DNA from: an uncultured Microbacterium sp. | Lineage (GTDB): Bacteria; Actinomycetota; Actinomycetes; Actinomycetales; Microbacteriaceae | Direction of reading: 5' to 3' | DNA: 33,586 nt | Assembly (NCBI RefSeq): GCF_913776565.1 | Contig: NZ_CAJYPF010000009.1 | Location: forward strand, 1-33,586 | Shown: positions 2,752-8,901 of the stretch, piece after piece | How the letters are laid out: the number at the start of each line of letters is the position of its first letter | Numbering within the stretch: the first letter of the stretch is position 1 | The notes under the pieces: generated by a model | Seen by the model: only the letters and a program-made list of their open reading frames with translations | What the model was told of the DNA's origin: nothing | The model's database searches: none | Made by a program: the position numbers and the translations under genes

Positions 2752-2778
2752 GTATCTTTACCTTCACAGTAAAGATAC
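2752..2778. promoter_or_regulatory. Perfect 10-bp inverted repeat, candidate MarR operator
   Basis: Arms GTATCTTTAC (2752-2761) and GTAAAGATAC (2769-2778) are perfectly complementary and separated by 7 nt. A second overlapping pair, CTTCAC (2762-2767) and GTGAAG (2785-2790), extends the structure. The block is markedly AT-rich compared with its surroundings and lies 19-45 nt upstream of the monooxygenase start. Position, symmetry and the MarR gene in the same operon make it the likely autoregulatory operator. This is inference; binding has not been shown. Confidence 0.75.
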
Positions 2779-3284: not shown

Positions 3285-3313
3285 TTGCGTCATTAGAACA
3301 TCTGTTCGACAAT
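3285..3313 (+). promoter_or_regulatory. Promoter with overlapping LexA (SOS) box
   Basis: TAGAAC-ATCT-GTTCGA (3294-3309) differs at one position from the symmetric form TCGAAC-N4-GTTCGA of the LexA box known from Gram-positive and mycobacterial systems. It lies inside a plausible sigma-A promoter: -35 TTGCGT (3285-3290), a 17-nt spacer and -10 GACAAT (3308-3313). Six nucleotides follow before ATG 3320. A repressor bound here would cover the spacer and the start of the -10. The sequence pattern is seen directly; LexA control is inferred. Confidence 0.75.
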
Positions 3314-3319
3314 GGCGTC

Positions 3320-3577
3320 ATGGACATCGAAGGCCCGCGCTGGCACCCCCAGCTGCTGGCGCGCGAAGAGCCGCCCGCGCACTGGGTCATGCGCGACGCG
3401 CGTCACGCCGTCGCCGGCACGATCGAACTCCGCCGCACCGAGGACGGTCCGCGGTACCGGGTCGAGCATCGCGGCACCGTCATCGGATGGGCGGCGACGC
3501 TGAAGGTCGCCACCGAGCGCCTTCATCGCGCGATCATCTCCGAGGCCGTCCCCGGTGGTGGCGTCAACGGGCGGTGA
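3320..3577 (+). CDS. Small conserved-looking hypothetical protein, probably SOS-regulated
   Basis: An 85-aa soluble protein without membrane segment or signal peptide. It starts with a Trp/Pro-rich stretch (GPRWHPQLLAREEPPAHWVM) and continues with what looks like a small beta-rich fold (GTIELRR…YRVEHRGTVIGWAATL) followed by a helix (KVATERLHRAII). I cannot name a characterised family. ATG 3320 is chosen because a promoter with a LexA box ends 6 nt upstream, so the transcript would be leaderless. An overlapping ATG at 3312 is in another frame and gives an Arg-rich, unconvincing product. DNA-damage induction is therefore the only functional hint. It faces the convergent BKACE gene. Antisense ORFs across it are shadows. 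Confidence 0.7.
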   Translation: MDIEGPRWHPQLLAREEPPAHWVMRDARHAVAGTIELRRTEDGPRYRVEHRGTVIGWAATLKVATERLHRAIISEAVPGGGVNGR

Positions 3578-3633: not shown

Positions 3634-4584
3634 TCAGGCGCGGATCTTGTACAGCTCCCGAGCTTCGTCCTGCGTCGCGATCGGGCGGCCCACCTCGCGG
3701 GCGATCTCTTGCGCCTGCTGCAGCAGTTCCAGATTCGTGGGGTTGCGCGCCGGGTCGTAGAAGAGCTCGAGGCCGGTCTTGATGTGTCCGCCGAGCTCGA
3801 TCGCCCGCCGCAGGATGTGCGTGTCGTCCAGGGCGCCCTGACCCCAGATCGAGATGTACCAGGGGTGCTGGACCTTCGCCTCCTCGATCATGTGCAGGTA
3901 GTAGTACAGGCTCTCCAGGCTGGGCTTCACACCGTTGGTCGCGATCGGCTCCGTCGCGGTCAGACCGTAGTCGCCGATCAGGTAGAAGTCCCACATCGAC
4001 CCGGGGGTCGACATGCCCTTGTTGACGTAATGCATCGCGTGACGCAGGTGCCCCGGCTCGTAGACCCCGTAGACCATGGGGATCTGCTTCTCGCGCAGCA
4101 TTCGCCACTGACTGCCGATCCGGGCGTAGTCGAAACCGAATTCCGGACCCACCAGGTACCCGTCCTCGTCCTCGTGCGTCGCGAAGAGGGTGAGACCCGT
4201 GTCGACACAGGCGATCTGCGCGTGCGCGTGCTCGTTCAAGGGCATCACGTGCTCGAGCCCGTTTTCGCTGCCGGTGAGGCGCAGGTTGTTGCACGTCGTC
4301 GGGTACCAGGTGATGTCGGGGTGTTTCTCGAGGACGGTGCTCCACGTGCGCATGTAGTCCTTGTAGGCGTTCTCGCCCAGCAGGTCGAAGCTGGTGTTGT
4401 GCGCGTGGATCGCCCCGGCGCCCGCCTCCCAGCAGCGGATCGCATCCTCGGCGATCTCGTCGTACCCGACCGGGGTATTCGGGTTCATCTCCTTGGTGCG
4501 CACGCCGTTGATGTGGGATTCGATCACGACCGGACCGTCCCAGTGCGGCTTCGCGTCGGCATACTTGTCGAGAGCGGTGGCCAT
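3634..4584 (-). CDS. Beta-keto acid cleavage enzyme (BKACE, DUF849 family)
   Basis: A 316-aa member of the 3-keto-5-aminohexanoate cleavage enzyme family. Known members are Zn(II) enzymes that react a beta-keto acid with acetyl-CoA to give acetoacetate and a new acyl-CoA. Visible features are the N-terminal strand VVIESHINGVRT, the metal-binding HAH (residues 60-62, GAIHAHN), the EPGHLRHA segment (175-182), and the late Glu in KTGLELFYDP (269-278), likely the third ligand. Length is typical. ATG 4584 has a strong AGGAGG site 5 nt upstream. The gene appears monocistronic; the upstream SDR is 103 nt away, and the intervening sequence carries an inverted repeat overlapping a possible promoter. 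The true substrate (carnitine/betaine, lysine fermentation or other keto acid) cannot be told from sequence alone. Confidence 0.9.
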   Translation of the reverse strand: MATALDKYADAKPHWDGPVVIESHINGVRTKEMNPNTPVGYDEIAEDAIRCWEAGAGAIHAHNTSFDLLGENAYKDYMRTWSTVLEKHPDITWYPTTCNNLRLTGSENGLEHVMPLNEHAHAQIACVDTGLTLFATHEDEDGYLVGPEFGFDYARIGSQWRMLREKQIPMVYGVYEPGHLRHAMHYVNKGMSTPGSMWDFYLIGDYGLTATEPIATNGVKPSLESLYYYLHMIEEAKVQHPWYISIWGQGALDDTHILRRAIELGGHIKTGLELFYDPARNPTNLELLQQAQEIAREVGRPIATQDEARELYKIRA

Positions 4585-7566: not shown

Positions 7567-8901
7567 CTAGGTCAACGACCTGCCGCGCTGCTCGCGCAGG
7601 TAGAGCGCCGCGGCGACGGCCACCGCGAAGAAGCCCGCGAACACCACGAACAGCAGGGGCACTCCCCCGATGCCGAGCAGGGGCGGCACCGCGAGCGGGG
7701 CGAGGATCGACGCGATTCGGCCGATTCCTGCGGCCCATCCCGCCCCGGTCGCCCGCAGGGACGTGGGATAGGTCTCGGGCGTCGCGGCGTACAGTGCGCC
7801 CCAGGCGCCGAGATTGAAGAACGACAGCGCCATGCCCGCCGCGATCACGCCGATCTCGCCGGAGGCCGTGCCGAACAGCACCGCGGACACCGCCGACCCG
7901 GCGAGGAACGTCGCGAGCGTCGCGCGTCGGCCCCACGCCTCGATCAGCCAGGCCGCGACGGCGTACCCCGGCAGCTGGGCCAGCGTGATGATCAGCGTGA
8001 ACCCGAACGAGCGCACGAGGTCGTAGCCCTGGCTCACCAGGATCGTGGGGATCCAGATGAACGCCCCGTAGTACGAGAAGTTGACGCAGAACCACAGCAC
8101 CCACAGGCTCGCCGTGCGCGCCCGCAGAGCCGGGGCCCACAGGGCGCTCACGCGCGGACGAGGGGCGGGAGCGGATGCCGTGACCCCCTCGGTCGACGCT
8201 TCGAGGGCGATGCGCCCGGCGGCGGCTTCGAGGTCGCGCACGATCACGATCGCCTCGGCGTTGCGCCCGCGCGAGGCGAGCCACCGCGGCGATTCGGGGA
8301 GCCCCCACCGCACGACGAGCGCGTAGATCGCGGGGATCGCGCCGAGCGCGAAGGCCCACCGCCACCCGTCTGCCGACGACGGTACGACGAGGAAGCCGAT
8401 GAGCGCCGCCGCCGTCCACCCCACGGCCCAGAACGCCTCGAGCAGGACGATGAGCCGACCGCGCATCCGCGCCGGAGCGAACTCGCTCACGTAGGTCGAG
8501 GCGACGGGCAGTTCGGCGCCGAGCCCGAGGCCCACCACGAACCGCAGCACCAGCAGGGCTGCGAGCCCTCCGACGAGCGCGCTCGCACCCGTCGCGAGGC
8601 CGTACACCAGCAGCGTCAGCGCGAACACGTACCGCCGACCGAACCGGTCGGCGAGCAGCCCGCCCACGCTCGCCCCGATCGCCATGCCCGCGAACCCCGC
8701 CGACGCGATCCACGACGCCTCGGCCGGGGCCAGTCGCCACTGCACGCTCAGCGCGGCGATGACGAACGAGATGAGCCCCACGTCCATGGCATCCAGGGCC
8801 CAGCCCAGTCCCGATCCGCCCAGGATCCTGCCGTGCCGACGGGTGAACGGCAGGGCGTCGAGGCGGTCGGACACGCGGACGGTGTCGGTGCGGGTGCTCA
8901 C
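7567..8901 (-). CDS. MFS transporter (sugar/aromatic acid porter-like)
   Basis: A 444-aa major facilitator with about 12 hydrophobic segments. The loop between helices 2 and 3 shows the MFS signature GGLLADRFGRR. The central loop has LPESPRWLASRGR, a hallmark of the sugar-porter and aromatic-acid/nicotinate (NiaP-like) branches. The first helix region contains GWALDAMDVGL with an Asp typical of proton-coupled aromatic-acid porters. It would import or export a small organic compound. GTG 8901 lies 7 nt after the stop of the LLM oxidoreductase gene, so the two genes probably form an operon and the transporter may handle that enzyme's substrate (inference). There is no specific substrate evidence. 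Confidence 0.9.
   Translation of the reverse strand: MSTRTDTVRVSDRLDALPFTRRHGRILGGSGLGWALDAMDVGLISFVIAALSVQWRLAPAEASWIASAGFAGMAIGASVGGLLADRFGRRYVFALTLLVYGLATGASALVGGLAALLVLRFVVGLGLGAELPVASTYVSEFAPARMRGRLIVLLEAFWAVGWTAAALIGFLVVPSSADGWRWAFALGAIPAIYALVVRWGLPESPRWLASRGRNAEAIVIVRDLEAAAGRIALEASTEGVTASAPAPRPRVSALWAPALRARTASLWVLWFCVNFSYYGAFIWIPTILVSQGYDLVRSFGFTLIITLAQLPGYAVAAWLIEAWGRRATLATFLAGSAVSAVLFGTASGEIGVIAAGMALSFFNLGAWGALYAATPETYPTSLRATGAGWAAGIGRIASILAPLAVPPLLGIGGVPLLFVVFAGFFAVAVAAALYLREQRGRSLT

Follow-up and report, generated by a model that had tools for sequence, protein, structure and literature searches.

The locus and its promoter

The window (the whole 33,586-nucleotide stretch of DNA that was analysed) belongs to a draft Microbacterium assembly of 3.03 Mb (86% complete; nearest relatives named Microbacterium). 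On its plus strand, a TTGCGT hexamer is followed by CAT, a LexA-type box (TAGAACATCTGTTCGA), a GACAAT hexamer overlapping the box, six bases, and the ATG (position 3320) of a short open reading frame, ORF1, of which the assembly contains one copy (Table 1).

Table 1. Promoter elements and coding sequence of the ORF1 locus (window coordinates).
Feature	Position	Strand	Basis and remarks
-35 hexamer TTGCGT	3285..3290	+	Sequence; TTG is the part conserved across 13 orthologous promoters
LexA/SOS box TAGAACATCTGTTCGA	3294..3309	+	Sequence; half-sites conserved, spacer variable among orthologues
-10 hexamer GACAAT	3308..3313	+	Overlaps the box at its end; most relatives have GATACT
ORF1 (85 aa), putatively leaderless	3320..3577 (including stop)	+	ATG 6 nt past the -10 hexamer

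An earlier sequence-only reading had placed a LexA/SOS box inside a promoter ahead of an 85-aa ORF, and the box is indeed there, 1 base away from the symmetric TCGAAC-N4-GTTCGA; at up to 3 mismatches, it occurs once in the window, against 0.04 occurrences expected from shuffling. The promoter proposed in that reading held up in its geometry, with 17 nt between the hexamers and the same layout in relatives, but the hexamers themselves are weak relative to the consensus (3/6 for TTGCGT and 4/6 for GACAAT), and the pair was not called in a generic sigma-70 scan set at 9 of 12. The promoter is nevertheless credible because its arrangement is conserved in relatives, with GATACT or GATAAT as the -10 hexamer. 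Comparison of upstream sequences places the start codon 6 to 7 nt downstream of the -10 in every close copy; since 6 nt is too short for any Shine-Dalgarno sequence, the ORF1 mRNA is probably leaderless, with transcription predicted to start at or beside the ATG. An Rfam search of the region gave no match. Farther upstream, a perfect inverted repeat at window positions 2752-2778 (GTATCTTTACCTTCACAGTAAAGATAC) precedes a FAD-monooxygenase-like gene and has the look of an operator, although the scan calls it a terminator.

Boxes of the same kind stand before genes of this genome that are recognisable as SOS genes. A degenerate palindrome, KMGAACNNNNGTTCKM, was found at 9 places in the whole 3.03-Mb assembly, compared with 2 for the reversed control; TCGAACCTTCGTTCGA lies upstream of recA, and TAGAACACATGTTCTA stands before imuA'-imuB, where the ImuB ORF has an IMS domain and the first gene is one that we take, from its sequence, to be imuA'. 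Across the 17 genomes examined, every recA promoter carried a box of this type (≤2 mismatches). The assembly contains one LexA match, and the window box agrees with the experimentally determined LexA motif of Streptomyces venezuelae (PMC9380542). We consider it very probable that ORF1 is under LexA control as a member of the LexA (SOS) regulon, and we infer from these sequences that LexA binds its promoter and that DNA damage induces it.

Two further loci of the genome carry boxes of their own. The lexA gene (L046; G000:C164, around locus position 1261) has only a poor, imperfect box, CCGAATCTATCTTCGA, which suggests that autoregulation may be weak. At a DUF222 gene (L049; G000:C163, around locus position 1090), TCGTACATTTGTTCTA overlaps a possible start codon and recalls the SOS boxes of mycobacterial 13E12 genes. 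The idea that SOS promoters of the DUF222/13E12 type had been captured was dropped: a comparable box was present at 1 of the 4 DUF222 loci of the genome, and it was differently placed.

Conservation of the box and extent of the family

A protein search matched ORF1 in 52 of 198 Microbacterium genomes, with 1 to 3 copies per genome, a patchy distribution, and occasional pseudogenes. The close subfamily comprises 13 intact copies, encoding proteins that are 62-98% identical, and 2 pseudogenes, and all 15 retain the box, the -10 hexamer (GATACT, GATAAT, GACAAT, or GACACT), and an ATG or GTG start 6 to 7 nt on. When the promoters are aligned, conservation reaches or approaches 2 bits at most half-site positions of the box and at two positions of the -10 hexamer; the 4-nt spacer of the box and the flanks are variable. 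A strict leaderless-SOS pattern had 11 matches in the 198 genomes and none in the reversed control, and 9 of the 11 precede this gene family; a match in G026 (L073) was set aside, as it lacked a convincing ORF. At another locus (L079; G061:C11, approximately 8474-8500, minus strand), a second leaderless-type SOS promoter, GAACTAATGTTCGATACTGTCTACATG, lies before another small ORF, which is divergent from a gene reading like a MobF/TraA relaxase (a putative assignment). The ORF1 coding sequence is constrained, with a median pN/pS of 0.27 and a Jukes-Cantor (JC)-corrected dN/dS of approximately 0.15 (76-78 pairs). Conservation of the box in orthologues and purifying selection on the ORF had been named beforehand as tests of the SOS proposal, and both came out in its favor, the former in the close copies and again in further genera.

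The promoter and ORF1 travel together into unrelated surroundings. Most copies resemble one another in DNA sequence from the promoter, approximately 15-65 nt ahead of the ATG, to a point past ORF1 (approximately +250) or, in five copies, past a second ORF of approximately 89 aa, ORF2 (approximately +550); the flanks are unrelated, save for those of the window and Microbacterium testaceum TPD7010, a strain with a 98% identical protein and a perfect box. ORF1 and ORF2 are remote paralogues (hhalign probability 91%, E = 9e-7), and the family hidden Markov model likewise retrieves the latter. ORF2 is lacking from both the window and TPD7010, and in genus g80, ORF2-like and ORF1-like domains share one open frame, with a box ahead in 1 of 2 cases. 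Compared with TPD7010, the window has approximately 1.1 kb between the ORF1 gene and the next shared gene (window 3634-4584), a stretch that holds a DUF849/BKACE-like gene. Elsewhere, one and the same ORF2 copy, identical also in its upstream sequence, occurs in four genomes, twice in G197 (L115, L116, L125, L127, and L128); ORF1 is there replaced by a frame whose other strand resembles a DUF305 protein, and this ORF2 copy reads as a spreading element.

The wider family, with proteins of approximately 85-100 aa, had no member outside Microbacteriaceae in a class-wide sample of 346 genomes. Within Microbacteriaceae, an alignment search recovered ORF1-type members from 49 of 300 genomes, representing 23 of 85 genera, and ORF2-type matches were obtained in 51 of the 300 genomes (24 genera), the two genome lists overlapping. 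About ten genera, Microbacterium included, have a box before family members: at ≤1 mismatch in g46, g17, g3, and g67, at ≤2 mismatches and close to the gene in g26, g64, g69, and g80, and approximately 110 nt upstream in g22 and g81. Two other calls, at L068 (-70) and L082 (2 mismatches, -81), were taken as chance. Half of the 20 loci fetched solely for ORF2 homology have, upstream of the gene, a box with ≤1 mismatch, which would occur by chance in a 170-nt stretch with a probability of approximately 0.0014. A tree built from 80 members groups the 13 close ones in a single supported clade in which all have the box, and over the tree as a whole, which is poorly resolved, the box label changes 9 times, compared with 21 in shuffles.

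Many relatives lack the box, including a Microbacterium lineage whose genes have ribosome-binding sites. By eye, a GGCCGG motif recurs in the 5' leaders of members without a box (e.g., L089, L092, L099, L102, and L109), and the same leaders may form a hairpin, TGCTCC...GGAGCA, enclosing the ribosome-binding site; this leader is perhaps regulatory. Because box-less relatives exist, the box is unnecessary for the protein, and this, together with the weak -35 and -10 hexamers of the window, would fit the view that the box is a by-product, in other words, a promoter that resembles a LexA site by chance or was inherited by copying with no regulatory role. We regard that view as highly improbable: the half-sites hold constant against a variable spacer and nearly saturated silent sites; the box recurs at related genes of about ten genera, in several cases outside Microbacterium ending 3 nt before the start and thus in a register shifted from that of Microbacterium; and 25 of 64 family genes have it against 0.09 expected, a count that is inflated in that some of the loci were fetched for their boxes.

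Genomic surroundings

Two kinds of neighbour bear on the function of the family. The order in all four g46 genomes is the box, an ORF2-type gene and, on the same strand and within tens of nucleotides, a gene for a bifunctional 3'-5' exonuclease/DNA polymerase, which was identified by sequence in two genomes and in one by its profile match (NF011538, E = 3e-214; PF00476). A gene for an SRAP protein (YedK/HMCES type, PF02586) lies approximately 0.3-1.6 kb from members at five distinct loci in four genera. SRAP proteins act on abasic sites, and HMCES on those in single-stranded DNA (ssDNA) (PMC9436759, PMC10250235). Since phage genes are also present at two of the five loci, the SRAP pairing may partly reflect phage cargo. 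The ORF1 gene of the window has metabolic neighbours only, and neither the g46-type polymerase nor SRAP adjoins it.

The surroundings of other copies raise the alternative that ORF1 is an accessory gene of a phage, integrative and conjugative element (ICE), or plasmid, e.g., a LexA-controlled antirepressor or escape factor responding to the host SOS response in the manner of the Salmonella Gifsy antirepressors, in which case the window copy would be stranded and either kept for its own use or decaying. Travel of promoter and gene together between unrelated flanks, the patchy distribution, the variable copy number, and the pseudogenes all agree with such a role, as does the precedent of small LexA-controlled prophage antirepressors (PMC3121763). 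Inspection of neighbouring ORFs placed box-bearing members in an ICE-like region, beside a phage holin, and on replicons that carry ParA. One box-less relative is gp70 of the inducible phage vB_MoxS-R1, and box-less Microbacterium members often stand tail-to-tail (convergent) with a tyrosine integrase gene (L173, L174, L175, L178, L180, and L184). Searches of sequence collections returned little more: the phage search with ORF1 found one phage, under two accessions, and that with ORF2 none; the plasmid collection gave no match; and the viral contigs yielded one prophage fragment (L083), the protein of which is the same as that of L029. Against this, the box-bearing Microbacterium members are not integrase neighbours, and integrase adjacency was rejected as a general feature of members with a box; ordinary chromosomal genes surround the copies in the window and TPD7010 and several of those in other genera; members have no conserved repressor gene next to them; and the protein is under strong constraint. 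On balance, we consider a primary role in mobile DNA rather unlikely.

Predicted protein, proposed function, and comparison with known systems

The ORF1 protein has a pI of 9.9 and a composition (GRAVY -0.57; best 19-residue hydropathy 0.54) that bears out its description as soluble in the sequence-only reading, which had also been unable to assign it to a characterised family. That judgement stands: searches of Pfam, NCBIfam, PHROGs, PADLOC, and the PDB sequences with ORF1, ORF2, and the family alignment gave chance-level matches only. The family is a real one, under constraint, and none of the family libraries searched includes it. The AlphaFold model of ORF1 comprises five strands and a C-terminal helix (pLDDT 83.8, pTM 0.71), and that of ORF2 has the same order of strands and helix (pLDDT 81.2). 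Foldseek comparison of the two models with the PDB returned nothing significant; the list for ORF1 included chromo-barrels, GNATs, YegP, and Pur-alpha (non-significant, E 0.05-1), and that for ORF2 was headed by the ssDNA-binding ThermoDBP-RP2, with MoSub1 lower (non-significant, E 0.35-1.4). The viral fold library contributed many small phage proteins, mostly with no named function, at E = 4e-3 or worse. The resemblance of the predicted folds to ssDNA-binding proteins hints at ssDNA binding but does not amount to evidence of it.

We propose, with a probability of approximately 0.48, that ORF1 encodes a LexA-regulated accessory factor of DNA-damage tolerance or repair that belongs to an undescribed family, seen only in Microbacteriaceae among the genomes sampled. 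In the undamaged cell, LexA bound between the -35 and -10 hexamers would block the leaderless promoter; upon damage, RecA on ssDNA would trigger LexA self-cleavage, transcription would begin at or next to the ATG, and the small soluble protein so produced might act by, e.g., binding DNA or ssDNA, or by binding a polymerase or nuclease at damaged sites. The earlier guesses were a division inhibitor, a DNA-binding modulator, or a repair accessory; the last is tentatively favored because of the neighbours, namely, the DNA polymerase operon of g46 and SRAP beside five members.

SOS regulons of other bacteria include inhibitors such as SulA, YneA, DivS, and ChiZ, and ORF1 might likewise encode a small, cytoplasmic damage checkpoint protein that is produced only under SOS conditions and inhibits cell division or replication. 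Its predicted SOS-only promoter, small size, and lack of a ribosome-binding site are compatible with this, and there is a weak fold match (E = 0.012) to N4 gp8, a phage inhibitor of host replication, but N4 gp8 is one among many weak matches to small phage proteins and was set aside. YneA, DivS, and ChiZ belong to the membrane or the wall, whereas the ORF1 protein is soluble; neither a sequence relation nor a significant PDB fold relation was found; and the neighbours of other members (polymerase and SRAP) suggest repair instead. A checkpoint role therefore appears improbable, and judging from regulation and neighbours, we rank the damage-tolerance accessory first, the mobile-element gene second, and the checkpoint inhibitor third.

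A more elaborate version of the damage-tolerance proposal is speculative and rather unlikely: the family, specific to Microbacteriaceae, would consist of one or two small sheet-plus-helix modules that are SOS-induced, attach to ssDNA, and either recruit an exonuclease/DNA polymerase dedicated to them or control it; plasmids, ICEs, and prophages would have captured these modules repeatedly, along with their LexA-controlled promoter.

SOS regulons vary greatly among bacteria, and their lineage-specific part is mostly unexplained. Here, a compact module combines a LexA-type promoter, found over about ten genera of one family, with an undescribed protein, a predicted fold, and a paralogous partner, and in one genus shares its direction of transcription with a 3'-5' exonuclease/DNA polymerase. 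A true role in damage tolerance would make this a new SOS effector family in Actinomycetota, and a role in the service of mobile DNA would reveal another route by which elements tap the host damage signal.

Several known systems resemble the module in part. DinI, SulA, YneA, DivS, and ChiZ are small SOS-induced modulators. The ORF1 protein is likewise small and, by its promoter, probably made upon damage, but it has no sequence match to them. No Pfam family was hit at E ≤10 by the window protein, and 22 relatives gave no match to the DinI family (PF06183) at E ≤1; the predicted fold is devoid of a DinI-like first helix, and DinI is absent among the fold matches shown. Traits of the YneA/DivS/ChiZ type were also lacking from the window protein, which has no hydrophobic segment and no Pfam domain. 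The Salmonella prophage antirepressors GfoA, GftA, and FsoA (PMC3121763) are the products of small genes under LexA control that mobile DNA carries in several copies per genome, a description that would also fit members of the ORF1 family, but no sequence relation was found, no repressor partner was seen, and many box-bearing copies lie outside elements. SRAP/YedK and the NF011538 exonuclease/DNA polymerase are recurrent or co-oriented neighbours of members but represent different protein families. The ssDNA-binding folds of the PC4, ThermoDBP, and PUR types are similar to the ORF1 and ORF2 models in having an antiparallel sheet followed by a C-terminal helix and in occurring in tandem or two-domain versions, although the Foldseek matches are non-significant (E 0.35 or worse) and there is no sequence relation. 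In the LexA regulon of S. venezuelae (PMC9380542), the operator is of the same class (there tCGAAC-N4-GNNCGa) and likewise lies over the promoter. Relative to the LexA regulon of Actinomycetota, the ORF1 protein matches no described SOS gene product, and its gene is set apart by an operator between the -35 and -10 hexamers and a predicted leaderless start 6 nt past the latter, a tight geometry that makes it a clean case for LexA acting on a putatively leaderless promoter.
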